Source of the DNA: a virus
IMG/VR virus record: IMGVR_UViG_3300030090_006102
Location: 1-41,500 of that record
Strand: one strand, 5' to 3'
DNA: 41,500 bases
The notes beneath the pieces were generated by a model, which made no database searches, was not told where the DNA came from, and was given only the letters and a program-made list of their open reading frames with translations. The translations under genes were made by a program, and so were the position numbers. Position 1 is the first letter of the stretch. Each line of letters opens with the position of its first letter. Shown in pieces: positions 3,670 to 25,811 of this stretch.

Positions 3670-6600
3670 TTAATCACTTAACCCTGCATTTATTCTCTTA
3701 GATGGATCATATCTATAAATTTCAAAAGTCATATTGCTTCCATCTTTTTCATCTCCTACCAGTACAGTTGCCGAAGTATTATCGTACCCCTCTAAACTAA
3801 AACGCACTTTTTCGCCAGAAGCCTTATACACTTCAACAACATAACCTCCTGTATTAGTAGAATTTACACCATTACTGAGAGCTAAAGCACTAAAATCTAA
3901 CTCAAGATATATATTAACAGTATTACTATTCTGTAAGGCCCCTAAAGTAGAAATATTAGGAAAACGAGCATCAAATTCGGGCAACACTAAATCTTTATTT
4001 ATTTTAACAATGTTACTAGTAGGAGCAGGGCTTCCTGTCAAAGCCGAAGGCAACGAGCCCACCTCAACTTTACTAACTGTCGATTGTTGTGTTCTAGTGA
4101 GATCTTGCTGATCATCTACCGCTTGAAATTTACTGCGGTTATACATCATCGCAGTTATTTGGTACTGGCTAAAATTTTGCTCTAAAGAAGATAAAACTCT
4201 ATATTCTACTTCTTCAATTTTATAATTATCTGAAGTGTTTTGCGCCGACCAAATAAATCCCTTTTTAATTAAGTTAAAATCTTCGTCTGTAATTTCAGAT
4301 ATAGTGACCACATTAGTTTCACTTACTGAAGCTATTGTGAATTGTTTTATTTGCGTCTGCCTTGTAGAATCTATTTCTTCAGTGGTTATTCCTTCTGTTG
4401 GAACTTGATTTTCTACTGCAATTTTTAGTTTAGAACTTGCGGACTTATTTAATTCTCTAATAGTAGTATTTTCTTTAGGCACAATAAAAGTTATTTTTTG
4501 CCCTACTATATTTTGTTCTATACCTTTATCTAATGTAACTGAATTTGCAGCGTAGTTAATTTCTTTGATTCTACCCCCATATCTTTGAGATGTTTTAAGT
4601 TTATCTTGAATTTTTATAACATCTCCGGGCTTTAGGTAACTTCCTTCTTGCCCAGTCGTAAATTGAACCGTATCGGTTTCTGTTTGGTTTGTATAAAGCA
4701 TCCATTTAGCTAAACGATGAGCTTGAGCTTTTGAAGTAACGCCTAGCGCCATCACTTCTTTTTCATTAACACCAAATTCACGAATTCCGGCTGCATCCTC
4801 TACATACTCTACTTTTGACTTGAAGCTATCATCACGATCATTATAACGTACAATGGCTGTGGTGGCCCTAGAAGTAGAGGAACTCCCACTATAAATAAAA
4901 GAGCCATCAGCAACATTAGCATTAGTAAAAAGCATTACTGCTTCTTTAGCTTGGTCGTTAGATGCAAAAATGTACCCTGATGACCAGTACAGCATACCTC
5001 TAAAAATAGCAGCAATATCATTTAATGCATTAAAAGCATTCTTTTTTTGATCTAAATAAATATTACAACTAAAGCGGGGCTCTAAAAGTGGTAGTCCATG
5101 AAATTGGGTTGTAGCTTTACCTTGGGTAATATCGGCATCTAAAGGCTCTCCGGCCATATAAGTTTGAACAAAGTCAGATGTACTATTTTGTTGGTTTGTT
5201 AAAAAATCAAGAAGATAAGCATAAGCGTTTTCTTCTTTACTTTTTTGTTGCTCTAAAAATGATTCCTCTATATCAGGATATTGTTCAAAAACTTCTTCTA
5301 CGTCTGGCGGTCTAACTATTTCAAAAGTAAAATCTTTTGTAGAATCGTTATAACTTGAATTAAATATAAGTCGTTTGGCTGCCTTGTCCAAAGAAGTCCC
5401 ACTCGCATTTTTAGTTCTATGAAAACACACTAAACCAGCTTCAGGATATCTTTGTTTTAATACTGTTTCTCCTAATAAAGTAGTGCTGTCATTTATAGTA
5501 ATAATTACGCCGCCAGCTTGACATGTAAAATCTAAATCTGAATATTTTCCAGAATATCCAGTTGGAACAAACTCATCACAATATTTAGCAATACTATATA
5601 AATTCCATTTATCAATAAATTCACTTTTAAAACCATATTTACCTATTCCGTATCTTTCATTTGTAGCTAAATCATAAAAAATCCAAGCAGGATTATCTGT
5701 CCACTTTTTTGTGGTAGCAAAATTGCCATCCCAATTACCTCTATATTGACGTGTTTGATTATTATAGTTATTTGGAACAAGTACCTTGGTCATTTTAACA
5801 TCATATCTGCGATTAGGAGGTTGAGAAAATGCACGCGCATCAAAAATCATTCCCATTAAAGCACTGTAAGGATAAGTTAGGTTCTGTTCTACAATTTCAC
5901 TAATAGTCTCAACTGTTAAATTTTTTTGTAATTTCACATTTCGTGCGCTTAATTCGCCATCTATACGAAAAACCTTAACGAATCTGTCTCGTCGATTTTC
6001 CTCTAAAGCCGGAGGAAGGTAAATATTATGACTTCTAGTATAGCCACCTGTTGAAATTCCAAAAATCCCTCCTGCGTAATAAACAACTGAACCGCCTTCG
6101 CTTACGGTAAGCTCATCATCTACATAACCCGTTTTGATTATAAAATTTACTGCTACAGGAGACTGATCTCCATCACTATGATTATATACTAACCCTCCTA
6201 CAGATAAATTTATTTGAACCCAATCTACGCTATCATTGCTAATTGTATGATTAGCATGCACAACTTGATTAGCTTCTGCGCCCCTTACATTATTAACTGA
6301 GTCTATGTCAGCTACTACTGACACAAAATTCTTCCGAAAAGAGTTCCCATAGTCGTTAGCCCATACAGTAGATAAATTAAATTCTTGACCATCGTCATCT
6401 ATAACAAGAAACTTACCCCCACTTCTAGATCTCTCAGAAAATTTTTCATGTCCGGCCAGTCCGGGCAACTGAGTTCCTAAGTTAACAGTTTGAATAGCGT
6501 TAGAAAAAGAAAATGCAGGATTTTCAAATTTAGTTAATGCTCGCTGATTCTCTAATCCTACTCGAAAATCTGCAAAAGTACGATTGTAATTTAAAGTGCC

Positions 6601-6882
6601 GGAAACTGTATTTTTTACAGGGACATCATTCAAATAAACTGCTTTAAATCCATCTTCATTTTTAGTAGAATCAGAAGTAATTCGTATTGTATTGCCCGCA
6701 CTGTCACATAAACCTTCTATTTCCCCTTCGCACAAAACATCTACTGTTTGATACATCGAGACAGATTCTAAAGCGCCATTCTGTGTAGTCGCATTTGGGC
6801 ATACTTTTTTAAAAGTAATATTTTGTCTATCTCTTTTAACTTCTGCGCCGTCCCCAACAGTTAATCCATTAATGAGTGCCAT
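3670..6882 (-). CDS. Lambda J-like tail tip / host-specificity protein
   Basis: The 1070-residue protein has the length and organisation of lambda gpJ relatives, which form the central tail tip, close the tube and carry host-range determinants. The N-terminal part has the typical run of a short beta segment with VLCEGEIEGL followed by VYLNDVPV. The middle has the J-type block around YLKPGDVIKIQDK after a LAKWMLY helix. The C-terminus is Thr/Asn/Ser-rich and beta-like. The ATG at 6882 lies 16 bases after the stop of the I-like gene, and the stop lies 2 bases before the fibre start, so it sits in the lambda-like string L-K-I-J. No Shine-Dalgarno sequence precedes it. The family call is strong; the exact receptor-contact region cannot be assigned. 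Confidence 0.87.
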   Translation of the reverse strand: MALINGLTVGDGAEVKRDRQNITFKKVCPNATTQNGALESVSMYQTVDVLCEGEIEGLCDSAGNTIRITSDSTKNEDGFKAVYLNDVPVKNTVSGTLNYNRTFADFRVGLENQRALTKFENPAFSFSNAIQTVNLGTQLPGLAGHEKFSERSRSGGKFLVIDDDGQEFNLSTVWANDYGNSFRKNFVSVVADIDSVNNVRGAEANQVVHANHTISNDSVDWVQINLSVGGLVYNHSDGDQSPVAVNFIIKTGYVDDELTVSEGGSVVYYAGGIFGISTGGYTRSHNIYLPPALEENRRDRFVKVFRIDGELSARNVKLQKNLTVETISEIVEQNLTYPYSALMGMIFDARAFSQPPNRRYDVKMTKVLVPNNYNNQTRQYRGNWDGNFATTKKWTDNPAWIFYDLATNERYGIGKYGFKSEFIDKWNLYSIAKYCDEFVPTGYSGKYSDLDFTCQAGGVIITINDSTTLLGETVLKQRYPEAGLVCFHRTKNASGTSLDKAAKRLIFNSSYNDSTKDFTFEIVRPPDVEEVFEQYPDIEESFLEQQKSKEENAYAYLLDFLTNQQNSTSDFVQTYMAGEPLDADITQGKATTQFHGLPLLEPRFSCNIYLDQKKNAFNALNDIAAIFRGMLYWSSGYIFASNDQAKEAVMLFTNANVADGSFIYSGSSSTSRATTAIVRYNDRDDSFKSKVEYVEDAAGIREFGVNEKEVMALGVTSKAQAHRLAKWMLYTNQTETDTVQFTTGQEGSYLKPGDVIKIQDKLKTSQRYGGRIKEINYAANSVTLDKGIEQNIVGQKITFIVPKENTTIRELNKSASSKLKIAVENQVPTEGITTEEIDSTRQTQIKQFTIASVSETNVVTISEITDEDFNLIKKGFIWSAQNTSDNYKIEEVEYRVLSSLEQNFSQYQITAMMYNRSKFQAVDDQQDLTRTQQSTVSKVEVGSLPSALTGSPAPTSNIVKINKDLVLPEFDARFPNISTLGALQNSNTVNIYLELDFSALALSNGVNSTNTGGYVVEVYKASGEKVRFSLEGYDNTSATVLVGDEKDGSNMTFEIYRYDPSKRINAGLSD

Positions 6883-7657: not shown

Positions 7658-7674
7658 TCTCTATTATTATACAC
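7658..7674 (-). promoter_or_regulatory. Start-proximal GTGTATAAT motif upstream of the I-like gene
   Basis: On the minus strand the sequence is GTGTATAATAATAGAGA, ending immediately before the ATG at 7657. TATAAT ends 8 bases before the start codon. It belongs to the set also found at 24791, 26618, 30120, 32249, 32699, 36221 and 38280. It is either a late promoter giving a very short leader or a translation signal. Confidence 0.5.
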
Positions 7675-7676
7675 AT

Positions 7677-8072
7677 TTAAAGTGAAAAATAAATCGACTT
7701 CTTGTTTTTTGGAGAATAAAATGAAAAATTTTTTTCTATATTGGAGTATATCAAAAATGGCTTACCTAACTCTGTGGCCATCTCGATGTCAGCCCCGCTA
7801 GGCTTGGCTCCTCCTAAACAATGAGAATGAAAGAAGAATTTTATTTCATTGTAAAATAAAACATACTCAGAAGGATCAACTATAAATGTTTCTTGGGGAT
7901 TTTTTGATAAATTTTTAAAAAAATATAATTTATCTTTAGTGGCCGCTCCACAAATTTCAAAATCGCAGCAATTAGCTATTTTAGAGATGCTTTTTAGAAA
8001 AAAACTATTAATATCTATATCTGTCAATTGATGGAAATCCTCCAAATGGTAAACCGGGAGCATATACTCCAT
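7677..8072 (-). CDS. JAMM/MPN+ metalloprotease, lambda K-like tail protein lacking NlpC
   Basis: This 131-residue protein carries a complete JAMM zinc-protease signature: Glu39 in E-I-C-G, then His82-Ser-His84, seven residues, Ser92-Gly-Ala-Asp95. The spacing H-x-H-x7-S-x2-D is canonical. Lambda gpK combines a JAMM domain with an NlpC/P60 peptidoglycan hydrolase. Here the frame stops after the JAMM domain and no NlpC domain is present, so only the protease half is kept. It overlaps the 3' end of the L-like gene by 65 bases in another frame. The ATG at 8072 was chosen because the next Met (residue 4) changes little; a TTG at residue 16 would reduce the overlap but cannot be excluded. The gene order L-K-I-J supports the call. 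Confidence 0.85.
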   Translation of the reverse strand: MEYMLPVYHLEDFHQLTDIDINSFFLKSISKIANCCDFEICGAATKDKLYFFKNLSKNPQETFIVDPSEYVLFYNEIKFFFHSHCLGGAKPSGADIEMATELGKPFLIYSNIEKNFSFYSPKNKKSIYFSL

Positions 8073-9468
8073 GCTCTAAATAGCGACATTTGCAAGCATT
8101 CAGGGTTTTGGCGCACATATCTGCTCTCCATGAGGCTTGAGCGTAACGAGGATCTTCAGATGTTGCTACCTCTTGAATACATACGAAAAACTGATCAGGT
8201 CTGCTTTGTAAATTTTCCTGAGTGTCTGTTACTTCTTTTTTGGCAAGATTCTCTATTTTCGATATTATTCTTACGACATCTCCTGCAACATACTTGGTAG
8301 ACCCTGCTACGCCATCACCTAAAGCACTACTTAATACTCCTGAAACTGAGGTATCCCCAGATTCAGCGGCAGTGTCAAGCTTTAAAGTTATATCACCAGT
8401 AAATACGATAGTTCGATCTTTTTCTATATCTCCAGTTAATGCATCTATCGAAACTGTTTGAGCCACCGTTCCTGTTTCATCATCTACTACCGTGCCACTT
8501 AATACGCCAGAAACAGAAGTAGCACTTGCAGAAGCAGCACTAGTTAGTGTAAATTTAGCCCCATTAGAAAAAGTAATAACTTTTTCATTAGCTATAGCAA
8601 CAGGAAGAGCATCAACAGTCATCGAAGTTGCCCCATCTGCGTAACCAGAGCCATTATTAATTTTTACGCTAGATAACGTGGCGGCACCATCTGTTGTGAC
8701 GCTTACGCTATCTTTTATATAATCACCGCACCATACTAACGTTAAATTATATCCTGTTGGAGTTGTAAACTTTTTATTATTTTCATCTGCAATAGGTATC
8801 CCTAAATTAACTTGATTATCATTAGCGAAAAATTGAGCCGGGGAAACCACACTACCATCTCCCATAATTACATTTTGATTTGAAAAATTACTTCTTTGCC
8901 CATAGCGACAGCCGTTTCCTCTGTATTGCCATGGACAATAATCAGCAATCATTACTCGAGCAGGAACTTGCACATCCTCTAATTCTAGCGGTGATATAAG
9001 CTCCCATTCTACAAAGTATTTATTTTCTGTAACTTTTCTATTTATAGTAAAAATGTCATCATCAAATCTTGAAGCAGGATCAGGAACTCCAAAAGGATTA
9101 AAATTGTTTGGAAAATTTTCATGATCTAAAAATTTCATGAAAATTCTTTTACGTATAATAGTATTACCAATTAAATCAGACCTTCTTTTTATAGCATCAG
9201 TTATAACTCCTTGAGGATTGGCCATAATTAATTTAGGCCTTGGCAACGAACCGTCACCTTTTGTTTCCCACCCATCGGTCTCAATAGGCATTGGAAAATA
9301 AGTTTGAAGTTCTCCTTGCGAATCTCTTAATACAATATCATTTTCATTGTTTTTGCCCGGATGAAAACGATAAAGCCCATCTTGTTCACCTAAATCAATT
9401 TCATACAATTCGATCAGGGTATCGGGCTCTAAATCAAGTAAAGATGCGTTGTGTGCTTGTGTAGACAT
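8008..9468 (-). CDS. Lambda L-like minor tail protein with an enlarged iron-sulfur domain
   Basis: The protein keeps the hallmarks of lambda gpL: a C-terminal cysteine domain and the terminal block LPFGGFPS. Cys178-x8-Cys187 (in CPWQYRGNGC) and Cys452-x6-Cys459 match the two cysteine pairs that bind an iron-sulfur cluster in lambda gpL; Cys461 is an extra neighbour. In lambda the pairs are about 20 residues apart. Here 264 residues separate them, filled by beta-rich repeats around ITFSNGAKFTLT and VSGVLSG, one of which is also found at the end of the upstream adhesin. At 486 residues the protein is about twice the lambda length. The gene starts 6 bases after the preceding stop with no clear ribosome binding site, and its 3' end overlaps the K-like gene. 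Confidence 0.86.
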   Translation of the reverse strand: MSTQAHNASLLDLEPDTLIELYEIDLGEQDGLYRFHPGKNNENDIVLRDSQGELQTYFPMPIETDGWETKGDGSLPRPKLIMANPQGVITDAIKRRSDLIGNTIIRKRIFMKFLDHENFPNNFNPFGVPDPASRFDDDIFTINRKVTENKYFVEWELISPLELEDVQVPARVMIADYCPWQYRGNGCRYGQRSNFSNQNVIMGDGSVVSPAQFFANDNQVNLGIPIADENNKKFTTPTGYNLTLVWCGDYIKDSVSVTTDGAATLSSVKINNGSGYADGATSMTVDALPVAIANEKVITFSNGAKFTLTSAASASATSVSGVLSGTVVDDETGTVAQTVSIDALTGDIEKDRTIVFTGDITLKLDTAAESGDTSVSGVLSSALGDGVAGSTKYVAGDVVRIISKIENLAKKEVTDTQENLQSRPDQFFVCIQEVATSEDPRYAQASWRADMCAKTLNACKCRYLEHGVYAPGLPFGGFPSIDRYRY

Positions 9469-9474
9469 ATTATT

Positions 9475-12400
9475 TTACCATTGCGGCCCCTCATTGAAAC
9501 CGGCAAAACCATTTTTAAGAGATACAGTATTTCTTTTCGATTCTATAGGATATAAAGTACCACTAGTACTAGCAGGAATATCTGCAGTTAAAGTACCCCT
9601 AACATTAATTGGAGTTCCAGATTGATTCGCATTTCGAGTAAATGTAAATATAGCTCCATTTGAAAAAATAATTTTTCTTCCCGCGAATATGTATTCAGGA
9701 GTCGACGTAAGTCTTATTCTTACGCTTTGTAAGTTTGCTTTATACTCTGTTGAATGAGAGGTAACAGTGTAGTATCGCACTGCGGGGACTCTTAATTTTT
9801 GATTAGCTATATAAGAAAAAAGAGCCGCCCTTTCGTCTGGCACTAAACTCTTTTTAAAAACTATAATGTCACTAATTCCCCCATACCACCCCGCATAAAC
9901 ATTATTGCCGTTAGCAGCTTCTAATCCACTATTTTTCCCGATTATAGGTTCGCCAAACCATTTGAATCTTTGTAAACCGGGCAACACTTGAGAGTGCACT
10001 TTATTTAAGTCATTAAAAATTTCATAAGTAATCCCTCCTGAATGCCTTGAAGCAGAAATGCTATACATCCATGCTCTATTAGGGCTTTTACCATTTGTGA
10101 AATCAGAAAAATATGTAATCTTATTGTTTAATAAACCAGTGTTTTCCGAGATCATATTTTTTTGTTGATCTGTGTAGTATAACAATGAGCTTGGCCCTAA
10201 CGTCCACTGATGCAATCCCCAGCCCTTACCTGCCTTTCTACCCTCCCTCGTACCCGTACCATCTACAAAAAATTTACCAGAAAGGGGGTTATCGTTATCA
10301 TTACCCTCAAATATCCTAAATGCACTTTTATTCCATTTTAATGCTAGTTGGCTAGGGGTGTCCCCAATCATAGCGCCGGGATAAAGAAAATAAACAATTT
10401 CAAATCCATCCATATCCATTTCTAATTTACCGCTTACATTTCCTAAACCAACGAGTTTACCTGCAGTGGCGCCTGTAGCACCAAAAAATACTATATTTTT
10501 TTCATTAAACGGTTTGGTGTAAGAAATTGAATTAGTTGTAGTGCCAGCTTCAATATATAAAGGCTTTTTGTTATTTGAGCTACCGGTCCAAGGAAAAGTT
10601 ATATAAATATTCGCATCATTTTTTGATGTCCATTTATCTACATATTTATATGAACCAGAGGTAGTTAGATTGAATTTAGATGCATCTGAGGATGTAAACC
10701 ATGCTAACAAACTAGGAAAATTAGTGGTAGTAGGCTCCAATGCTTCAGGATAATCTAACAAAGAGTTGAGATTTGAATAGTTGCTATTCCCAGTAATAAT
10801 TTTTATTGCTTCGCCCCCTTTTCCACCCAAGCCCGGTTTTTCGTCGGGCTCTGTTTTAAACAATGCTCCGGCATTAGCATTTAAACCATCTATGCCATCT
10901 TCTCCGAAAATTCCACCATTGGCTCCGGGCGATAATTTAATAGACATGTCAGCCAAAGAGCCATATCCTGCACCCTCAGAACTGCCTTGTCCGGTTGCAA
11001 AACGAGCAGTAGTGGAACCTTGTTCGCTTTTGAGGCTTGTCCCTCCTAATGAGATGCCAAAACCTTGACCTCCTCCGCCGAAACCGGCCAACTGAGTGCC
11101 TAATATATCTGAGTATTTTAAAGTTAGGCTTACGCTCTCGTTGCTCGAAGTTGGATTTTTCACCATTGCTAGAGCTGTTCCCTCGCCAGCGTCTCGACTT
11201 CTTCTTACTAGTTTATTTTCTCCATCTGCTCCTTCTCTAATATATGCGTCATATTGGTTATTATCATTCCTAAAATAATTAGCCAATAAGTAAGTAGGAT
11301 CTAAAGTAAAAGCTTTAGGAAAGAAAAATGGGTCTCCTCCTCCGCCGCCTCCTCCGCCGCCATATATCACCGATTCAGGATGTTTTCTAATTCGAAATTC
11401 GCCTATACTAGTATCGTTGATGTGGATGGCGGGAGATCCATCTCCTCCATCCGTTGACGACATTGCATCACCTTTGGTAATTTTAAAATAATTTCTATAT
11501 TGAAGTTTGGCTTCTGACCCTAAATCTCCTATATTTATATCCGTGAACCCGCCATCTCCGCCACTTCCCCCTGCACCGTAAACACGACTTCTCGCTTTTA
11601 GAGTTAAGACACTCTTGATTTCAGTGCTACCATATTTTAATTGACCTCCAGTTGTTATCCCAGCTGTACCCTCGGTAACGGAACCTACAGTCGTATCTTC
11701 TGGAACTATAAAGTTAACACCAGTAAATGCATAATCTGCATGCGTATTATCAAAAGCATTAACCGTTGCTCCTCGATTAGTAAGCTCGTCATCAAATACA
11801 GTTTTTAAATTTATGTCTTGTTGCCCTTTAGTAAAATAAATATCTAACGATTGTGGAGAAGAGGTCGCATTTGCAATGTCTGGAGCTTTAGCAACATTTC
11901 CGCTAAGCAATCCATAGTTTATATCGTTATCTGTGATAGCAACATCAAAATTATCTACAGGATATCCATATACATAAGGACTTTCATAACTTATATTATC
12001 ATCTCGATCTATATACTGGCTTTTAATTCTAAAATAATAATTAGCATCAAAACCTAAATCAGAAACAGTATATTCTCCATAAGGAGAAGGAGGATTGGGC
12101 TCGGTGCCTCTAGTATGCAACTGGGCTATTCCTGTATTAGTAGCATATTTTTCATAAGTAAATGGTCCAGATATAGATGGCCCTGAATAAGTTTTTTGTT
12201 CAAAGTTTATATCAAAAGTAGTTAAACCTGTCCATGACCCTGTGGAAACAGAACTATCCTCAATATTTCCTGCATAATCAACTTGATAACGTTTAAAATA
12301 ATAACCCGTACTAGGGTGTTGCCAACGTAAAACACATTCCGGCTTACCGTTTCTACCATAATCAGTAGTGACCAAAAATCCTGAAGGATGCGCAGGGCCG

Positions 12401-12867
12401 GTGGTAAACCATTCAGGACTAGCTGGCCCCGATACAACTTGTTTAAAACCAGTGACTTGCCCTGTTACATTCACTCGTATAGACCCTTCGCTGTCACTTT
12501 GACCATCGAATTGAGACACTGTACTTAAAGTGAAAAAGTTTTCGTATTTTCCATTTACATCCGGGCCTGTAGATAGATTACTAGTGGTGGGTCCGCTAAT
12601 GTTATCCTGAACAAAAACAAACTCAAAAGGAATAAACTTACTTTTGCCCGCTAAGAGAGTAAAATGTTGTCCTGAAGGAAAATCAAAGATGGTAGGGGTA
12701 GCAGCATCATTATAACCAACTGTTGTCTCTATTGGATGAGACCCACTATTAGTTAGATAGAATCCTGTACGAATGCCAAATCCAGTAATGCCAGTAAGCA
12801 CCATTCCTGTCGTAGCAATAAAATCATTGCCTTCTCCTCTACTAGTAACTTCGCTTGGTAATGACAT
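9475..12867 (-). CDS. Large multidomain tail adhesin (Ig/Fn3-like, glycine-rich, lectin-like)
   Basis: I do not recognise an exact family for this 1130-residue protein. The order of parts is: an Ig-like beta region (about residues 10-130); a fibronectin-III-like stretch (about 140-310) around CVLRWQHPSTGYYFKRYQVDY; a glycine-rich region (about 425-690) with runs such as YGGGGGGGGGD and FGGGGQGFG; a concanavalin/LamG-like region (about 715-1030) opening with LLAWFTSSDASKF and DKWTSKNDAN; and a C-terminal beta motif IIFSNGAIFTFT shared with the next protein, L. It lies between the M-like and L-like genes, starts by a TAATG overlap and stops 6 bases before L. Glycine-rich loops recall phage receptor-recognition proteins. 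Inference: a tail-tip adhesin binding surface glycans. Confidence 0.72.
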   Translation of the reverse strand: MSLPSEVTSRGEGNDFIATTGMVLTGITGFGIRTGFYLTNSGSHPIETTVGYNDAATPTIFDFPSGQHFTLLAGKSKFIPFEFVFVQDNISGPTTSNLSTGPDVNGKYENFFTLSTVSQFDGQSDSEGSIRVNVTGQVTGFKQVVSGPASPEWFTTGPAHPSGFLVTTDYGRNGKPECVLRWQHPSTGYYFKRYQVDYAGNIEDSSVSTGSWTGLTTFDINFEQKTYSGPSISGPFTYEKYATNTGIAQLHTRGTEPNPPSPYGEYTVSDLGFDANYYFRIKSQYIDRDDNISYESPYVYGYPVDNFDVAITDNDINYGLLSGNVAKAPDIANATSSPQSLDIYFTKGQQDINLKTVFDDELTNRGATVNAFDNTHADYAFTGVNFIVPEDTTVGSVTEGTAGITTGGQLKYGSTEIKSVLTLKARSRVYGAGGSGGDGGFTDINIGDLGSEAKLQYRNYFKITKGDAMSSTDGGDGSPAIHINDTSIGEFRIRKHPESVIYGGGGGGGGGDPFFFPKAFTLDPTYLLANYFRNDNNQYDAYIREGADGENKLVRRSRDAGEGTALAMVKNPTSSNESVSLTLKYSDILGTQLAGFGGGGQGFGISLGGTSLKSEQGSTTARFATGQGSSEGAGYGSLADMSIKLSPGANGGIFGEDGIDGLNANAGALFKTEPDEKPGLGGKGGEAIKIITGNSNYSNLNSLLDYPEALEPTTTNFPSLLAWFTSSDASKFNLTTSGSYKYVDKWTSKNDANIYITFPWTGSSNNKKPLYIEAGTTTNSISYTKPFNEKNIVFFGATGATAGKLVGLGNVSGKLEMDMDGFEIVYFLYPGAMIGDTPSQLALKWNKSAFRIFEGNDNDNPLSGKFFVDGTGTREGRKAGKGWGLHQWTLGPSSLLYYTDQQKNMISENTGLLNNKITYFSDFTNGKSPNRAWMYSISASRHSGGITYEIFNDLNKVHSQVLPGLQRFKWFGEPIIGKNSGLEAANGNNVYAGWYGGISDIIVFKKSLVPDERAALFSYIANQKLRVPAVRYYTVTSHSTEYKANLQSVRIRLTSTPEYIFAGRKIIFSNGAIFTFTRNANQSGTPINVRGTLTADIPASTSGTLYPIESKRNTVSLKNGFAGFNEGPQW

Positions 12868-16829: not shown

Positions 16830-17768
16830 TTAGTCCTTATTGTAATAGTCTTTAAATTCTAAATTTACACTTAAAACCCCGTCAACACTTGATTCAATAC
16901 TCTCTGATACTAAATGTCCTGTTGTACTTAAAAATTCATATCTTGTTATGCCATCACCATCGTCTCCTAAACAGTCTCCGTTATTATCTTGTAAGCAAAG
17001 TTTATCTCCCACCACTGCATGTCCATCTAATGTGTCTTCTTTGGCTCCTAATCTAATTTCAACTCCTAAAGTTTGATAATTACCGCTGCGAATATTATCA
17101 ATCATGTTTGCGGTTTCATAATCATCCATCTCAATTGTCAAATTGGTGGTAATTTCTATTGGATATTCAGTAAGAACTTCAGATGGGGCATAAAGTGTTT
17201 CGCTTGTTTTTTGATCTAATGAATAAATAGGAATGCGATTAATATTATAATCTTGAGATACAGAAACAGCTCGGTTAGTTCCCGAGCCATTAAAAGTTAA
17301 AAATACAGCTTCGTGATTAACAAAGCCTAAATTTTGAAGGGGAGCGGTTCCTGAGTAATCTAATTCCCTTTCCCTTTCCCCGCTCCCCAACTGGCCGAAA
17401 ACAGCAAATGTTGTCTCTATCGTAGGGACATCTTGAACATCGCAATTTATACTATAACTAGTCAGATAACCAGTATTAAAACCATAAACTTTTTCAGCTC
17501 CATTCATTTCGACATCATATAATAATGTGCCAGAAACAGGAGCTTCTCCTGTAAGACCCAATACGGGATCTTGATAAAGTAAATCGCGAGTCATCGATAA
17601 CTCACCTTGCAAAGGTTCAGCTATAACTTCACGAATAAAGCCTGCGCCTAAAGCTCGTACTTGTTTTTGTCCAACACTATATCCGGCACTAACATTACGA
17701 ATGCCAGATACACCAGTCCCATCAAGATAAAAAATTTGTTCGTAACTTGGTGAAGCGTTATTGGGCAT
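16830..17768 (-). CDS. Tail-tube-like structural protein
   Basis: This 312-residue protein follows the tape measure directly, sharing one base with its stop (TAATG). It has two beta modules: residues about 25-150, with FIREVIAEPLQGELSM and GYLTSYSINCDVQDVP, and about 170-300, with VSVSQDYNINRIPIYSL, EYPIEITTNLTIEMDDYE and a final VNLEFKDYYNKD. The second module resembles the C-terminal part of the plus-strand tube proteins (VPMSRTILGRLGNTFG, then PMNIDISVSAILSEL). In lambda the gene after the tape measure is M, so this and the next two genes are additions. A distal tail protein-like or tube-fold ring is likely; I cannot name the family. Confidence 0.62.
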   Translation of the reverse strand: MPNNASPSYEQIFYLDGTGVSGIRNVSAGYSVGQKQVRALGAGFIREVIAEPLQGELSMTRDLLYQDPVLGLTGEAPVSGTLLYDVEMNGAEKVYGFNTGYLTSYSINCDVQDVPTIETTFAVFGQLGSGERERELDYSGTAPLQNLGFVNHEAVFLTFNGSGTNRAVSVSQDYNINRIPIYSLDQKTSETLYAPSEVLTEYPIEITTNLTIEMDDYETANMIDNIRSGNYQTLGVEIRLGAKEDTLDGHAVVGDKLCLQDNNGDCLGDDGDGITRYEFLSTTGHLVSESIESSVDGVLSVNLEFKDYYNKD

Positions 17769-20700
17769 TATACTCTAGAATGTTTACTTAAAGAGCCGCC
17801 AAGTCTTTGTTCTTTACTGACTACTTCTAATACAGCGGCACGAATTCTTTCGGCTAATTCTTTTCCTTGTGTAGCTTGGTCTACATTAGATTGCTGACTC
17901 GCACTTGCGTTACCGGTACTTTGAGATCCGCCTTGACCTGTGCCTCCTCCGCCGCCAGTGTTGACACTGATTGAAATGTTATTAGTATTAGCTCCGGTTT
18001 GAGAGTTGAGTGGCGCGGGAGCAACCGGTCCGCCTGCTTGCATTGTGGGTATAAGTCCTCCGTTTAGTCGGCCCATAAAACCAAGACCGTATTTGCGCAC
18101 CGCGCGATTGTTCATTACAAACTCGCCACCTGCCATGTAAGCTGGAACGCTATCACGATTCATAAAACCGCGCCCTATGTGACCGCCTTTTTGACGATCG
18201 GGTCCGGCACTATACGCCCATCGAGCCTCTTGTTCGTTAGCGTACATTCCCGTAATGTCTTTCCACTTTTCGCCTCCGCCAACTTTTTCTGCAAAACTTT
18301 GTGTCCTTTTTTCTGCCATTTTGTTAGCACCCATACTCATTAATTTACCAACTCCCATACTAACTGCTGTACTCAAGAAGGTGGAAAGTAATTGTTTCTT
18401 TTGTGCTTTTTTCTGTGCTTTTTCTGCTAAACGAGCTCTTTCAGCTTCACGAGCTTCGGCTAATTCCGGATTATCAGAAGCGAGGAAGAATCCGCTCATT
18501 CTATTACTATGAACACTTTCGTCTATTCCCATCATGCCGCCACTTTGAGCAAAACGAGGGAAAGCCCCAAAGTTCATTTGATCCAAAGTGCTTCTCCCTA
18601 CTCCTTGTACGGCCTTACGATTCAGTACATATTCGCCCGGCTCTAACATAGCAGGCACTTTATCTCCAGTACCTGAACCGGGAACGAATGAACCTCGTTG
18701 AGATTTTCTGAAGCCGGAACTTGTACCCATACCAATTAAATTAGTAAAGTTACTCATTGAATGCTCAAGCGCAGCTCGACGCATCATCTTTAACATATCG
18801 ATGGCTACTCCGCGCATCGCATCCCCAAAACTTTCAGCTTTGTCCATAGCGCTTTCCATCGCACTTACCATTCCATCACGAAAAGCAGTTGGTAAATCTT
18901 TGCCCAGTCTCGCATATATATAATCAGTTTCCTCGTAGATGTCTAGCATGCCTTCTTTGAATTGAGTTTGAAAGCTACGCGCATCTTGATCAAGACCTAC
19001 CTGCCTATCTGAAACTAGCTGGCGAGTATAGTCTGCTATTTCTTTTTCGTTTTGCAGCCTTTGAGAGCCATATTCAATATCTTGCTGCAATTTATCAATA
19101 TTATCTCTTAAGATTCTATTTTCATCTCCTGTCGCCTCTGCTTTTAAGTCTTTCAATTTTGTAATAACTTCTTCTTGACTTGTAAGACCTTGTAATTCTT
19201 GGGCTAATTGCTGCGCGGCTTGCCTTTCTGCTTCAAAGTCAAAAGCTGTACTATATTTTCTACCAGCAGCAGATCGCTGCCCTTTTCGACCCATTATTGA
19301 AGATTTTTCTTTATCAAATGCCATTTGAGCCGGAGTACTAAACATATCTGCACCGGCCATCTGGGCATCTTTAAGGTTTGCATAACCAAGTCGTGTAGCA
19401 TCAGCTTCTGTGAAAGTCGGGCGATCACCCAGAGCAAGCATATCTACAGAATCTATTAATTGGTTCATTGTATCGCGTAATCGAGTCTGACTATCTACCA
19501 AGTCAACATTAGCTTGAATGACCTGCTTTTGAACTAACAACTCTGAAGCACGCTGAACATTTTCCTCTAACATCGCAGCTTTGCGATTCCGAAATTCCAT
19601 ATCCGCTATGCGCTGTTCTATACCAGCTCTCGCAACTCCTCGAGCTCCTTCGGTGCGAAAACCTGTGCCACGAAATGAACGGGGATCGTTCAATACATTT
19701 TCACGTAATTCAGCAATTCCTCTATTTCTACCCAACTCAGCATCTAAAGCACCCATACGCCGCGCGGACATCATGCGTCGCATTTCGTCATTCATTATTC
19801 TTTCTTTTTCTGTATTTTCTCGACGTTTTTGCTCTAGTTCGATTTTGGAGTTTGTAATTGTTTGCTCTAAATCAAGATTAGTTCTTTGTTGAGTATATTC
19901 TGTTCTCAAAGAATTAATAAGTTTATTTATTTTTTCTTGTCCTTCTAAATTTTCAGATGTAAATTGAGAATAAGCGTCTAATCCCGCGATTATATCTTGC
20001 CCAAAAAGTGCAGACGCTTGTTTAAGTTTTGCTAACTGTTCGTCGCCTACCGCACCTCCTGCATCTCTGATTGTTTGAGCTATTCTAGTTGCATTCTTGG
20101 CGGCTGTGGTAGTTGTTAGTTGACGACGTTGAGTTTGGAAACTGGCATCACTTTGTGCTTGCTGAAAACCTCCAATTCCCAAACCTAAATTAGCTCCTCC
20201 TAATAAATCCATTCTTTCTGACACAAAAGCTTTGCGTACTTTTTCAATATTATCTAAACCATTAGCTATATTGTTTAAAGTTTCAACCATGCGCTGAATA
20301 CCATTTTTAATTCGAGTAAAATTCTGAGCGGCTTCCTTTGCCTTTTTCCCAGCTTCTACTACGTCCGGAGCTATTTCGCCAGCGCCTTTAGTAAGACTTG
20401 AAAACCAAGTTGAAATACTTCCAAAAATTTGTTTTGTTTCGCCTGAACCCCTTTTCCCAGTTCTCATGGATTTACCACGAATCATGTCGATTATGTCGCC
20501 ACTAAGCATAGCGTTCATTTCGTCATCAGTTATATCTGTGAATATTTCGCTACGCTCTCTAAATAATTTTATCAGATTGGCTCTAGCATCCTCTTGATAC
20601 GAGGCCATATCATAGGTTCCTATTCCCGCAAATCCTCCCGTGGGATCTATTACGGCAGCTGCCTCTTCCATTTGTTTCAAAAAGGCATCATCTACATTCA

Positions 20701-23700
20701 TCATTCGGAACATATCGCCAAATTTATTCATGAACTCTTGGCGTATTTTGTCAATTGATTTACCGGTCTCTTTATTAAAGGCTTCAGTTCTATACTCTTT
20801 AAACCTCATTGACTTTTCGCCTGTGCTAGTAAAACCTTGTTGTCTTAGATTTTCTAAAGCTTGCTCATCTAATGAGTCAGTATAAAAATTTTTCGTCTCA
20901 AACCGAGGTACACGCTGATTTCTTCCTCTAGGTTTTTGTCGTTTGAACGTTTCTACTTCTCGTCCTTCTCCAACACCAACCTGTCGAGTACCTATCTGTT
21001 GAAATCCTATATCAAACCCTTTGCCCATTTGGGCAGCTCGTTTAGCCACAACTCTTCCTGTCGTAGCTGCTTGATAAGCTCTTAATGCTGAAGTTAAAGC
21101 GTTAACGTCTGTACCTGCGTTTTTAAAGCTTTTTTCTAGTTCAGTACCTTTGATCTGATCAAAGTTTTTGGCCAATCGTTTTTGAGCATCTTCTAGTTCG
21201 GCAACAGTACCTCCCGATTGAATATCTTTTAATGCTTGTATATATTCTTGAGCTGCGCTACTAGTCTTAGTTGTTTCTTGTTCGTATTCATCTGCACTCT
21301 TTTTAAGCTCTTCTAAACTTGCACCAACGTCATTAACATTCATAGCAAAACCAACTAGTGCTCCTCCTGCTGCACCAACAGCCGCTCCCCATGGTCCAAA
21401 TATCATGCCCATAGCTGCACCTGTACCAGCTCCTGTTAAAGCTCCAGATGTGCTGGTAGCACCTCCTGCTTGTTCTACTGCGCCAGCTAACATTGGCAGC
21501 CCCATTGTCAAGCCCATTCCAACCCCCATGCCGCCCATACCGCCACCCATAGCGCCTCCCATTCTACCCATTATACCGGGGCCTTTTGAGGCGGCCATTA
21601 TTTTAGCTTCAAGTTTTTTAGCTTGAACTTTGCTCATACCAAGAGTACCCGCTAAAGCAGTTATTTCTTTTTTCGCTTTTTCTGTCCCCATAGCGCCGCT
21701 TTTTAAATCCATGGCTATTTCTCTAGCCATCATATCAGCAACAGCAAAATCATCACCAAGCCTAGAAAGCTTCATGACTACTCCATCAACAGTTGTTTTT
21801 AGTCTTGATAGATTCAATTTGCCAATATCACCGCCTTCGGCAAAATTAGGCACATAACCTCTTGCCGCTCCAACAACATCCTGTAATCCTCTGGGCTCAT
21901 CTCGTGTATTGGTTACAGCTAATCCAGCTGGATTATTAGGCCCAGTTAATTTACTTGAACGTCCCACACGAATAGATCCTAAAGGAACTCCTGCGGCAGC
22001 TTCTCTTTCTACCGCATCTCCAAGTGCAGCAAAATTAGGAACATAGCCTCTAGCAGCGCCCATAGTGATCGGCAGGGTCTTACCAAAATTCTTTATTATC
22101 TGTTCAGCTATCTTTGCTCTATTTCCTGTCGACCAACTTGACTTGACATCTGCATGAGTAGCTGCTGTCTGAGTAATTCCAAAAAGCTGTTCCGCATTTC
22201 TTCCTGCTGTTCCAGATAAAAGAACATCTAGAGTCGAAGTATTAGCATCACCCTTTTCATATCTTTGGCCCACTAAACGGCTAACAATAGCCTCAAATAA
22301 TGCACCTTTGAACGCGCCCATCGCGCCAGCGCCACCCTCTTTTAAAAATGTTCCTTCTACTTTTTTTCTGCTAACAGGTATTTTGGCCAAAGACGGACTA
22401 TAAGCCATAATCACACTTTCTGCCGCTTTAACTAAAGCATCATCTAAAACATCTTCAACTTTAGATAACCTCCCTCCCTTTTGCGCTTCTTTGCTCGCTG
22501 TAAGACTAGGCCCATAACCACTTAATATCATTCCGTCTATATCTTGACCCGCAACGGTGGAAGCTAATTTTCGCAATTTGCTGTCGCCGCCGAATAAGTA
22601 AGGATAGTTTTCAGATTTAAATCCGGCTTGCGGCACAAGCATATGTGCCTTACTTGTAGCATTTAGAAATGTGCCTGCTACAGTTTTTTTCTTACCCCCT
22701 CTTTCTATTCTTTGCGCAACACTTCCCGGCCTCATAGTTTTACCGGTTATACCAAACATGCCAGCTATAGTACGTGTTCGGGCTAGATCGGCTTCTGCAT
22801 ATCCTCGGCCATATTTTCTCATACCTTGCAATTCACGTATAGCATCGGCACGATTCATATCCGCAAAATTAGGCACATATCCCCCAGCTCCTCTGATTGG
22901 TTTTGCACCAGCAGGCATTCCGTACTGCGCAATCATATTAGGATTAAAAATAGCAGAGCCGCCGCCTTTAAAGTTAGGAACTATATGCTCTCCAGTATTA
23001 GCAATCATAGTTCCTCGAACTCCACCGCCAAAAGCAAAATTAGGAATAGCTACAGGTTTAGCAGAACGATTAACTCCTCCTACTCCGCGCGCTATATCAT
23101 TAGCTTCTCCCGCCATACCGGGAATAAAGCCCGATGCACCTCTTCGCCCTTTAGTGCCGCCCGAAGCTGCCGTAATGTTAGTGTATGTTCCTTTGGGCAT
23201 CTGCGCCAACATTCTAGCAATATTTCTAATAGATTCTTCTTGAGAATCTAAATCTGTTTTAGCAGCCTCTGCGTGAGCTGCGAATATACCTGCTTGAACT
23301 GCCGCGTTACCCTCGTGAGCTAAAATTTGAGAAGCTAAATTAGCTTCGGTTTTCATTGCGTTAGCAATAATTTCTTCTAAGGTAGCCCGTTTTTGCGTTT
23401 GGGTAGTTATTCCTGCTAATGCAGGTAATGATTTTAAAAGATAACCAGTGGTGTTTATAAAAACTTTACCTATCAACCCTACTACTGCCACTAGGCCGGG
23501 ACCACCAATAACATTTTTAATTCCCTTTAAAAGACCATTTGCTATTTCGCTACCCGCACCTTCTCCATCAATAAGATCATTAAGGCCTTGCATTGCAGCT
23601 TTTAAAGGATCTAATATACCTTTGGCAATAGGCTCAAAAGTAGCTTTACCGATATTTTGCTGTAAACGTTGAAATTCTAGACCTGTTTGAGTTACCAAAG

Positions 23701-24790
23701 CGGACAGAGTTTGATTTAACTTAGCAGTAGCTTGTTCGGCTTCGTTCGTAGCACCTGTGGAAACTTTAAGGGCTTGACCAAAAGTAGATTGCTGCTTGCC
23801 TAAATCTCTCAATATAGCAGATAAAATGTTAGCTTGAAAAACACCAGCCACTTGCTCTCGTAAGTAAGCTTGACTATTATCTGTTAATCCTTTGTAGGAT
23901 TGTGCAAAATTGTCTAAAATTTGAATAGCTGGTAACGTATTACCTTGCACATCTTTAACAGCTACATTAAAAGATTCTAATGCATCTAAAGTACTTTGAC
24001 GTTGCAAACGGGTAAAGATAGTTTTCATGGCGTTACCTATAACTGCACCGCCTCGACCCGTACTTTGTTGCACCGCCGTTACCATAGCATTCAACTCATC
24101 AAATCCCACTTTAGCATCTTTAGCTGAAGAACCTACACGTCCGATAGCTTCTACAAGATCGCGAGCACCAACAGCAAATTTTGTTTCCACAGCCACAAAT
24201 TTATTAACCGAAGAGGTGGTTGTAACCATTGCATTGTCAAAAGCATTAACTGTAGCAGTTAAAGAACTCACCGCTTTATCTGCATTAATTCCAGTCAGGC
24301 GAACTAATGTCAAAGCGTCCGCCGTTCTTTTTAATGTTTCTTCAGTTTTTAAACCTTGACGGGCGAATTCCAATGCAGCCTTAGTAGTATCTTGAAAAGC
24401 TGTAGCGTTTTTCTTTCCTATCTTAAATAACTCATTTCCAAACCCTTCAAGATCTTTTCGGGAAAGTTGAAGGATACGGTTAATATCTGAAAATTGTTTT
24501 CCTACCTCTATAGTAGTTTTAGCCAGCTCTTTAAACGCTTTAGAAATTCCGCCTATGACTGCAGTAGAAGCACCGAACGCAATAACACGCGCATTTGAAG
24601 CAGCTAGAGCTGAATCAAATTGTTTAAGGTCTCCGGTAATACGACCCAAAGGCTGACGAAAACCTTTTTCATCAATTTTAAGCTTTAAGCCGCCACTTTT
24701 TTTCATAGCGTCTTCAGCAATCTTTCGGCCGCGCTCTACCTCGCGCATCCAGTGCCTTTTGTCAATCCCTACTTTTAGATCTACAGACAT
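17768..24790 (-). CDS. Tape measure protein with embedded nuclease-like domain
   Basis: At 2340 residues this is the largest protein here. Residues about 50-380 form the helical tape-measure core (ALEFARQGLKTEETLKRTADAL, FDELNAMVTAVQQSTGRGGA). From about 550 to 985 come loop repeats ending in PNFA or PNFK (about residues 583 and 604, then GYVPNFA with Tyr638, Tyr916 and Tyr979) and an apparent globular domain between them. A Gly/Met/Ala-rich hydrophobic stretch lies at about 1075-1160, then long charged coiled coils to about 2000. Near the end are two loops of the type VPA-x-x-x-x-GE-(Y/F)-V, at about 2045 and 2215. If all residues were helical the length would be about 350 nm (0.15 nm per residue); embedded domains make that an upper limit. 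The start is preceded by the GTGTATAAA motif. Confidence 0.93.
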   Translation of the reverse strand: MSVDLKVGIDKRHWMREVERGRKIAEDAMKKSGGLKLKIDEKGFRQPLGRITGDLKQFDSALAASNARVIAFGASTAVIGGISKAFKELAKTTIEVGKQFSDINRILQLSRKDLEGFGNELFKIGKKNATAFQDTTKAALEFARQGLKTEETLKRTADALTLVRLTGINADKAVSSLTATVNAFDNAMVTTTSSVNKFVAVETKFAVGARDLVEAIGRVGSSAKDAKVGFDELNAMVTAVQQSTGRGGAVIGNAMKTIFTRLQRQSTLDALESFNVAVKDVQGNTLPAIQILDNFAQSYKGLTDNSQAYLREQVAGVFQANILSAILRDLGKQQSTFGQALKVSTGATNEAEQATAKLNQTLSALVTQTGLEFQRLQQNIGKATFEPIAKGILDPLKAAMQGLNDLIDGEGAGSEIANGLLKGIKNVIGGPGLVAVVGLIGKVFINTTGYLLKSLPALAGITTQTQKRATLEEIIANAMKTEANLASQILAHEGNAAVQAGIFAAHAEAAKTDLDSQEESIRNIARMLAQMPKGTYTNITAASGGTKGRRGASGFIPGMAGEANDIARGVGGVNRSAKPVAIPNFAFGGGVRGTMIANTGEHIVPNFKGGGSAIFNPNMIAQYGMPAGAKPIRGAGGYVPNFADMNRADAIRELQGMRKYGRGYAEADLARTRTIAGMFGITGKTMRPGSVAQRIERGGKKKTVAGTFLNATSKAHMLVPQAGFKSENYPYLFGGDSKLRKLASTVAGQDIDGMILSGYGPSLTASKEAQKGGRLSKVEDVLDDALVKAAESVIMAYSPSLAKIPVSRKKVEGTFLKEGGAGAMGAFKGALFEAIVSRLVGQRYEKGDANTSTLDVLLSGTAGRNAEQLFGITQTAATHADVKSSWSTGNRAKIAEQIIKNFGKTLPITMGAARGYVPNFAALGDAVEREAAAGVPLGSIRVGRSSKLTGPNNPAGLAVTNTRDEPRGLQDVVGAARGYVPNFAEGGDIGKLNLSRLKTTVDGVVMKLSRLGDDFAVADMMAREIAMDLKSGAMGTEKAKKEITALAGTLGMSKVQAKKLEAKIMAASKGPGIMGRMGGAMGGGMGGMGVGMGLTMGLPMLAGAVEQAGGATSTSGALTGAGTGAAMGMIFGPWGAAVGAAGGALVGFAMNVNDVGASLEELKKSADEYEQETTKTSSAAQEYIQALKDIQSGGTVAELEDAQKRLAKNFDQIKGTELEKSFKNAGTDVNALTSALRAYQAATTGRVVAKRAAQMGKGFDIGFQQIGTRQVGVGEGREVETFKRQKPRGRNQRVPRFETKNFYTDSLDEQALENLRQQGFTSTGEKSMRFKEYRTEAFNKETGKSIDKIRQEFMNKFGDMFRMMNVDDAFLKQMEEAAAVIDPTGGFAGIGTYDMASYQEDARANLIKLFRERSEIFTDITDDEMNAMLSGDIIDMIRGKSMRTGKRGSGETKQIFGSISTWFSSLTKGAGEIAPDVVEAGKKAKEAAQNFTRIKNGIQRMVETLNNIANGLDNIEKVRKAFVSERMDLLGGANLGLGIGGFQQAQSDASFQTQRRQLTTTTAAKNATRIAQTIRDAGGAVGDEQLAKLKQASALFGQDIIAGLDAYSQFTSENLEGQEKINKLINSLRTEYTQQRTNLDLEQTITNSKIELEQKRRENTEKERIMNDEMRRMMSARRMGALDAELGRNRGIAELRENVLNDPRSFRGTGFRTEGARGVARAGIEQRIADMEFRNRKAAMLEENVQRASELLVQKQVIQANVDLVDSQTRLRDTMNQLIDSVDMLALGDRPTFTEADATRLGYANLKDAQMAGADMFSTPAQMAFDKEKSSIMGRKGQRSAAGRKYSTAFDFEAERQAAQQLAQELQGLTSQEEVITKLKDLKAEATGDENRILRDNIDKLQQDIEYGSQRLQNEKEIADYTRQLVSDRQVGLDQDARSFQTQFKEGMLDIYEETDYIYARLGKDLPTAFRDGMVSAMESAMDKAESFGDAMRGVAIDMLKMMRRAALEHSMSNFTNLIGMGTSSGFRKSQRGSFVPGSGTGDKVPAMLEPGEYVLNRKAVQGVGRSTLDQMNFGAFPRFAQSGGMMGIDESVHSNRMSGFFLASDNPELAEAREAERARLAEKAQKKAQKKQLLSTFLSTAVSMGVGKLMSMGANKMAEKRTQSFAEKVGGGEKWKDITGMYANEQEARWAYSAGPDRQKGGHIGRGFMNRDSVPAYMAGGEFVMNNRAVRKYGLGFMGRLNGGLIPTMQAGGPVAPAPLNSQTGANTNNISISVNTGGGGGTGQGGSQSTGNASASQQSNVDQATQGKELAERIRAAVLEVVSKEQRLGGSLSKHSRV
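22063..22843 (-). other. PD-(D/E)XK-like domain inside the tape measure
   Basis: Residues about 650-910 of the tape measure look globular, unlike the helical flanks. A helix with Glu833 (GALFEAIVSRL), Asp855 in STLDVLLSG and Asp881-Val-Lys883 in HADVKSS has the order expected of a PD-(D/E)XK nuclease core: Glu, then Asp, then (D/E)-x-K. GYVPNFA repeats bracket it at residues 637-643 and 915-921. This is motif reading only. A structural or ADP-binding domain cannot be excluded. Confidence 0.42.
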
Positions 24791-24818: not shown

Positions 24819-25811
24819 TTAGCCCTTTAATACCTTCATTAGATCTTTCATGTCCATTTTGCCACCTTTTTCTTTTAATTTTGCCGAGAGGCTTTCCCCT
24901 TCGGAGCCTCCAATGCCTAAATAATCGTAATCTTCCTTTTTGGCTCCCACTATTGTAGAAGCTCCGTCTTTATCAATATTCTTTAATTTGTCCTTTGCTT
25001 TTTCTTGCGCATTGACATAATCCATAATTTTTTCAGGGTCTCCCTTCATCCTATCTGGAATTTTACTATAATTTTCAAAAATGTTTTTAAACATCCGTGC
25101 GTAAATCACCAACTTTACTTGATTAATTGAGAGTTCAAAAAGAGGCTTAGAAAACATGTTATTAACGTTTTCACAAAAAGGCATGTAAGGTTGAAAAAAA
25201 TCTTGTAGAGTTACTTTTTGAATGTTAATATCATCAAAAACTCCATAAGAAGAATTATAAAGGCGAACAATTTCGGACATTTCCCCTCGGGTCATATCGT
25301 CAACTTGTTCTTGAGTATAATAAGTCTCTTGTAATTTTTTATCTTTGTATAGCGATCTAACTATATAATGATCTGATACCCTGCTATCAGCATATTTTTC
25401 GCAAGTTTGTCCTAATAACTCGTCGCGTTGCGCTTCGAGGTGCAATATTTTTTTACGGGCTTCAAATATTTCCTCATTAACTTTATCTATTTCTGCTTTA
25501 AGGTATAATTCTTTTTTGGTATTCTCTACTTGAGTAAGATAATCCTGCTGCTCTTTAATTTTACCCTCTTCTTTTGAGGTCCATAATTCTTCTTCTCTGA
25601 GTCGACTTAAAGCCTCAGCTTTCGTAGGAAGCCCTCTTTGTTTTGCTTTTCTATAAAAAGAGTTTCGAACATCTTCTATGTCAACCTGATCAAAAACAGA
25701 TAAATGTTTTAGATAAGCAGGCGTTTGTTTATAATAAATCTCCGACCAACCAAATACTAAATCCTTAAATAAGTGTCTAAAATTGACACTACTTTGGCCC
25801 GTCGATATCAT
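24819..25811 (-). CDS. Probable tail assembly chaperone (second ORF)
   Basis: The 330-residue, charged and largely helical protein has a coiled-coil region at about 70-135 (KIKEQQDYLTQVENTKKEL) and a Lys/Gly-rich C-terminus. I know no exact family. It lies between a similar helical gene and the tape measure, the place of lambda G and GT, whose products chaperone the tape measure. The ATG at 25811 overlaps the 3' end of the preceding gene by 23 bases. The frame relation is +1/-2, not the -1 used by lambda. Independent initiation or coupled re-initiation is the simpler reading. Confidence 0.55.
   Translation of the reverse strand: MISTGQSSVNFRHLFKDLVFGWSEIYYKQTPAYLKHLSVFDQVDIEDVRNSFYRKAKQRGLPTKAEALSRLREEELWTSKEEGKIKEQQDYLTQVENTKKELYLKAEIDKVNEEIFEARKKILHLEAQRDELLGQTCEKYADSRVSDHYIVRSLYKDKKLQETYYTQEQVDDMTRGEMSEIVRLYNSSYGVFDDINIQKVTLQDFFQPYMPFCENVNNMFSKPLFELSINQVKLVIYARMFKNIFENYSKIPDRMKGDPEKIMDYVNAQEKAKDKLKNIDKDGASTIVGAKKEDYDYLGIGGSEGESLSAKLKEKGGKMDMKDLMKVLKG

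Follow-up and report, generated by a model that had tools for sequence, protein, structure and literature searches.

The tape measure protein of an uncultured siphophage carries, between two GYVPNFA motifs, a module (residues 643 to 916) that is probably enzymatic cargo, with a divergent active site of the PD-(D/E)XK type and delivery by way of the tape measure itself; we infer its fold, its catalysis, its entry into the cytoplasm, and its target. The GYVPNFA motifs delimit exchangeable in-frame cassettes. Could such a tape measure serve as a loadable scaffold for the delivery of several enzymes? On balance, we favor this broader reading, in which the motifs form slots, cassettes are exchanged in frame, and the new PD-(D/E)XK-like nuclease is a standard cargo beside a CCA-adding enzyme, a staphylococcal-type nuclease (SNase), a GNAT acetyltransferase, and a P-loop module, all of which would act in the infected cell.

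The window, that is, the whole stretch of 41,500 bases that was analyzed, is the entire virus record. Its longest tail gene is an open reading frame (ORF) of 2340 codons that lies upstream of the tail tip genes, has a PhageMin_Tail domain, and matched ten PHROG tape-measure families (best, 2.7e-37). The tail operon around it is lambda-like, with gpJ-, gpL-, and gpM-type proteins, and the presence of the gpJ-like protein marks the tail that holds this tape measure as lambda-like. The same record also has a terminase and a weak major-head match. The virus is an uncultured lambda-like siphophage that infects bacteria. A further protein of the tail region, 1130 aa long (window positions 9475 to 12867), had no match in Pfam or PHROG.

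Features of the tape measure region in the 41,500-base window (residues are those of the tape measure protein).
Feature	Position	Strand	Basis
Tape measure gene, 2340 aa, carrying the nuclease-like module	17768..24790	-	PF10145 8.8e-24; phrog_4211 2.7e-37
PhageMin_Tail (PF10145) domain, residues 125-309	23864..24418	-	Pfam match, E 8.8e-24
Motif VAIPNFA, P at residue 582	23036..23056	-	Sequence
Motif HIVPNFK, P at residue 604	22970..22990	-	Sequence
Motif GYVPNFA, P at residue 639, N-terminal boundary of the module	22865..22885	-	687 motif sites; cassette breakpoints in relatives
PNFA-bounded module, residues 643-916	22043..22864	-	Flanking motifs; AlphaFold2 pLDDT 83.9, pTM 0.72
Conserved nuclease-like core, residues 784-898	22097..22441	-	153 homologous domains among the matches listed
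Glu833, putative helix A (G829-x-x-F832-E833)	22292..22294	-	E 96%, D 4% of 128 listed
Asp855	22226..22228	-	D 98% of 129 listed
Asp881, first residue of (D/E)-x-K	22148..22150	-	D 65%, E 35% of 129 listed
Lys883 of (D/E)-x-K	22142..22144	-	K 100% of 128 listed
Motif GYVPNFA, P at residue 917, C-terminal boundary of the module	22031..22051	-	Sequence
Motif GYVPNFA, P at residue 980	21842..21862	-	Sequence
gpJ-like tail tip/host specificity protein	3670..6882	-	phrog_31 3e-137
312-aa protein, stop/start overlap with the tape measure gene	16830..17768	-	Frames of 316-324 codons after the tape measure in relatives
330-aa protein upstream of the tape measure, no assignable family	24819..25811	-	330-codon frame at the same place in relatives

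An earlier note on this DNA had proposed a nuclease-like domain at positions 22063 to 22843 (residues 650 to 909), embedded in the tape measure between PNFA or PNFK repeats. A globular module does lie there, with true boundaries that are wider than the note had drawn them. The repeats were found on both sides (at residues 582, 604, and 639 versus 917 and 980), and their part as module delimiters is borne out by the breakpoints of cassette exchange, which fall at the motifs. A related string, FPRFA, which resembles the P[NR]F[AK] motifs, occurs at residue 2078. The four putative catalytic residues that the note had named are at their expected places in the translated ORF, in the contexts ALFEAIV (E833), STLDVLL (D855), and THADVKSS (D881 and K883). 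Searched alone, the module segment had no match in Pfam, PHROG, or the PDB sequences; it is the only enzymatic module in the tape measure of the window.

Related tape measures were gathered by scanning viral contigs for GYVPNFA and GYIPNFA coding patterns (at least 120 stretches each). Since a first profile that contained the motif could have drifted, the core profile was built without PNFA and iterated until growth stopped. The family persisted after this rebuilding and comprises at least 153 domains (at least 129 unique) in at least 144 ORFs from uncultured phages. Many of the 129 listed domains are less than 25% identical to the window copy (the lowest, ∼15%), yet among the matches listed an E-D-(D/E)-K tetrad is present in 120 of the 129 unique domains (EDDK, 75; EDEK, 45), the remainder having DDDK (5) or another state (4). 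The most conserved columns among the matches listed were G829 (99%), F832 (91%), E833 (96%), D855 (98%), D/E881 (100%), and K883 (100%), and the same positions were invariant or nearly so in MAFFT alignments of 54 and 91 diverse members. In close relatives from several viral records, 65 to 83% identical over the module, the tetrad is invariant, with variation (V/A) at the position that separates D881 from K883. The four residues are thus kept in close and distant relatives alike, as the nuclease reading of the earlier note would have it. Judged from the alignments, conservation of the tetrad is far beyond chance, its pattern is that of the PD-(D/E)XK catalytic signature, and the strict interchange of DxK and ExK (65/35%) is what PD-(D/E)XK predicts. 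These data support the view that the four residues act like an active-site tetrad across a large and divergent family.

Strong purifying selection acts on the core. In comparisons with three relatives, dN/dS was 0.08 to 0.10 over residues 784 to 905, compared to 0.25 to 0.35 over the C-terminal half of the tape measure, all of these being rough values with dS near saturation. The N-terminal part of the module, 49% identical to that of loci L005 and L007, gave a dN/dS of ∼0.29, likewise a rough value near saturation of dS.

AlphaFold2 models were obtained for the window module with 54 sequences (pLDDT 83.9, pTM 0.72) and for a distant, compact family member, L036, with 91 sequences (pLDDT 87.3, pTM 0.82). 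The L036 model follows the order beta-beta-beta-alpha-alphaA(E98)-beta(D119)-alpha-beta(E145xK147)-alpha. A helix is predicted between the strand with the Asp and the strand with (D/E)xK, a clear first strand after helix A is absent, and confidence drops just ahead of the catalytic Asp. Because of the extra helix and the absence of a clear first strand, the predicted topology differs from the textbook alpha-beta-beta-beta-alpha-beta. Foldseek found no significant match in the PDB for either model and no match in BFVD for the window-module model. A confident non-nuclease fold, which the earlier note had named as an outcome that would count against it, did not emerge from AlphaFold and Foldseek.

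How does the domain compare with known PD-(D/E)XK enzymes? The residues appear in the superfamily's order, with E in putative helix A followed by D and (D/E)-x-K, and the same order (GxxFE helix, D, (D/E)xK) is found in Mrr_cat (PF04471), PoNe, and Hjc-like members; Mrr itself reads GxxFE ... VDI ... (Q/V)xK. The phage domain differs from these members in its predicted additions, a helix between D and (D/E)xK and a three-stranded N-terminal beta extension, and in that no member tested matched it significantly in sequence, profile, or fold. Profile similarity to a known member was not detectable in Pfam, where 54 and 76 family members matched no known nuclease family, in PDB sequence searches, which yielded nothing that places the domain in such a family, or in an hhalign comparison with the Mrr_cat alignment. 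The last paired helix A of the domain with the GxxFE helix of Mrr, not significantly (score, 13.0; 2 of 100 column-shuffled controls scored higher). Matches of the A4 profile to PDB lectins (E 0.02) were rejected as a chance overlap of the GxxFE string with haemopexin-type repeats. Divergent members of the PD-(D/E)XK superfamily often have no detectable profile similarity, so the missing match limits a claim of membership and not the likeness of the active site. Of the earlier note's PD-(D/E)XK reading, then, the conserved, ordered residues stand and the fold is putative, given that Foldseek was negative and the Mrr profile comparison not significant: the active-site likeness that the residues suggest is strong, and formal membership in the superfamily is unproven.

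Among all copies found, the domain is located exclusively in tape measures. Of the 144 domain-bearing ORFs listed, 122 have the tape-measure N-terminus in frame and 22 start at a contig or locus edge. As these loci had mostly been gathered by the PNFA pattern, the search was repeated with only two distant nuclease cores as queries; it returned 21 loci, every one a tape measure (20 include the N-terminus, and 1 is truncated). The nuclease-like core is present in 85 of 100 ORFs that cover the N-terminus and at least 1000 aa, and the module is most likely the commonest cargo of these tape measures. At single-sequence sensitivity, tblastn of the window domain and three distant relatives found none in 50,697 phage records (cultured phages), and the window domain found none in 72,556 plasmids. 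The core profile, which recovered 6 of 6 viral records as a positive control, found no cellular homologues in 585 bacterial genomes of two groups. In GTDB contigs, the GYVPNFA pattern had at least 120 matches; none of those listed has the domain or two motifs in one frame, and they thus look like chance matches.

The motif has the consensus A-(A/S)-x-G-(Y/F)-(I/V)-P-N-F-A over at least 687 unique sites. The part ahead of the first motif varies little in length among 46 complete tape measures (541 to 632 aa), whereas the part from the first to the last motif mostly spans 280 to 1050 aa. Between tape measures whose flanks are 70 to 97% identical, entire modules are gained, lost, or swapped, and the breakpoints fall at the motif. 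In L343, a P-loop module directly follows the first motif; L067, by comparison, has gained a nuclease module between PNFA sites, ahead of the same P-loop module. L110 has a third module before its P-loop module and a nuclease module after it, and in L082 the nuclease module directly follows the first motif, a difference of 289 aa from L110 between PNFA sites. DNA alignments break within the codons of the PNFA motif. In-frame recombination between motif repeats is a plausible way of cassette exchange; PNFA may act as a site of recombination or processing, as a linker, or in more than one of these roles. The motif DNA at PNFA sites of L343, L067, L110, L082, and L024 is a near-identical short direct repeat (CCAAATTTTGC core).

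Other enzymes occupy the same slot. L102 has a complete CCA-adding enzyme between VPNFA motifs (7563 to 8990; NCBIfam PRK10885 1.2e-41, phrog_2244 8.2e-58), which was also compared by tblastn to annotated phage tRNA nucleotidyltransferases, and carries a nuclease-like core as well (residues 741 to 843). In L326, a staphylococcal-type nuclease lies in a PNFA-bounded slot (8754 to 9344; PF00565 1.9e-9); the PD-(D/E)XK-like core was not detected in the available part of that tape measure. A GNAT acetyltransferase module (7.4e-5) was found in L291. The tape-measure N-terminus is the same in L102 and L326 and was not seen in L291, a fragment. P-loop NTPase-like modules have the motif GPAGSGKS and weak AAA matches below curated cutoffs. 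L067 has two nuclease cores and one P-loop module; with L102, it combines several unrelated enzymatic domains in one protein, a feature of polyvalent proteins. Tape measures are usually regarded as rulers and DNA conduits. To our knowledge, neither a CCA-adding enzyme nor a GNAT has a plausible periplasmic substrate, so the tail ruler most likely doubles as a carrier of enzymes for the infected cell.

Can the module be something other than a delivered nuclease? It is unlikely to be a metal-binding or structural fold with conserved acidic and lysine residues, one that either serves other phosphotransfer chemistry or is a dead remnant with no nuclease activity. The lack of a match to known nuclease folds or of a significant profile match and the unusual predicted topology are consistent with such a fold, but the order and spacing of G-x-x-F-E ... 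D ... (D/E)-x-K, with free interchange of D and E only where the last motif begins, follow the PD-(D/E)XK pattern, and all four positions are retained in 120 of 129 divergent copies among the matches listed, which would not be so in a dead remnant. A real nuclease that is active in the producing cell or inside the virion, for instance, in handling the end of the genome at the head-tail junction or in maturing the tail, rather than as a delivered effector, seems less likely still. Tape measures are made late and sit beneath the genome end, and the domain's presence in most tape measures of this type (85/100) would also suit a role there. However, the ∼15% of tape measures without it argue that it is not essential to assembly, the enzymes that share its slot (CCA-adding enzyme, SNase, GNAT, and P-loop module) have no obvious assembly role, and the module is exchanged like cargo.

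It is very improbable, in our view, that the tape measure gene harbors the module as a mobile element, such as an in-frame homing endonuclease or an intein-like nuclease with no role in infection. Homing endonuclease genes do interrupt tape measure genes elsewhere, for example, in phage ICP1 (PMC10448857), and the module here moves as a unit. Yet the reading frame of the tape measure runs intact across the module, neighboring cassettes with the same boundaries are nonnucleases, the boundary motif is common to all cassettes, and all copies found were within tape measures, none of them free-standing. With the frame uninterrupted and the 144 listed ORFs all being tape measures or truncated pieces of them, a homing endonuclease or intein was rejected.

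We return to the reading of a delivered cargo nuclease. The tape measure in the tail lumen would exit with or before the genome and would thereby carry its modules to or across the inner membrane. There, in a cell that has just been infected, the nuclease would act on nucleic acid, its most plausible targets being DNA of the host or of a competitor or a nucleic-acid component of the host's defenses. As is known from the literature, tape measures are ejected, are active at the inner membrane, and are able to carry enzymes. While the lambda genome is entering, the tape measure gpH makes contact with the inner-membrane site of injection; it was the sole phage protein robustly labeled there by ManZ proximity labeling (PMC13190303). 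The tape measure of mycobacteriophage TM4 has a working peptidoglycan hydrolase motif, Mt3, that helps infection (PMC1796659). Like the putative enzymatic module described here, the TM4 domain lies inside a siphophage tape measure; it degrades cell-wall peptidoglycan, whereas the present cargo, which includes nuclease-like, CCA-adding, GNAT, and P-loop domains, would have to reach the cytoplasm.

Polyvalent proteins are likewise long and hold disparate enzyme domains; their injection together with DNA has been proposed as a means of manipulating the host (PMC5512222). They are mainly described as capsid packaged or delivered by conjugation, and the paper does not use the term "tape measure"; here, in contrast, the carrier is a tail tape measure with modules bounded by one repeated motif. 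Tape-measure-like proteins also carry effectors in the Streptomyces contractile injection systems, as in Sle1 (PMC13277306) and Tme (PMC11126660). Sle1-type domains are exchangeable, and unfolding in the lumen, which may also apply to the phage modules in the tail, has been discussed for Sle1 (PMC13277306). The functional domain of Sle1 is C-terminal, whereas the cassettes here are central and are carried by the tape measure of a phage that injects DNA. What is new here is most likely the combination, in such a tape measure, of three known themes, namely, tape-measure enzymes of the peptidoglycan hydrolase kind, injected multienzyme proteins, and tape-measure-like effectors, with catalysis and delivery being putative. 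A literature search covering mostly titles and abstracts turned up no paper on VPNFA motifs in tape measures and no description of a nuclease cargo domain in one; tape measure and tRNA nucleotidyltransferase occurred together only in genome papers, with one or few mentions of each.

If tape measures do carry exchangeable cytoplasmic enzymes, siphophages would have a protein injection route comparable to polyvalent proteins and to the effectors of injection systems, and a motif search could list the cargo repertoire from metagenomes. With this family comes a candidate, amenable to testing, for a nuclease that is injected together with phage DNA. In a 2023 survey of mosaicism among phage proteins, tape measures gave a mosaic signal, but no genuine recent case could be confirmed (PMC10684548); the cassette exchanges at 70 to 97% flank identity, with breakpoints at one motif, are genuine recent cases.

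Several minor observations concern the modules themselves. The CCA-adding enzyme of L102 could repair tRNAs hit by host antiphage defense, and the SNase of L326 is a second, unrelated type of nuclease at the same position. The P-loop module is recurrent, ∼160 aa long between PNFA motifs (L055:8809-9282, L056:2349-2837, L067:2771-3265, and others), and is possibly a kinase. At L078:2320-3231, a module between PNFA motifs with no Pfam family contains LAHEMGHMVD, an HExxH motif, and on that motif could be a metallopeptidase cargo. Within the nuclease-like module, residues 643 to 768 (window positions 22487 to 22864) were replaced between close relatives and the core was retained, a pattern that would fit a specificity part being exchanged on its own.
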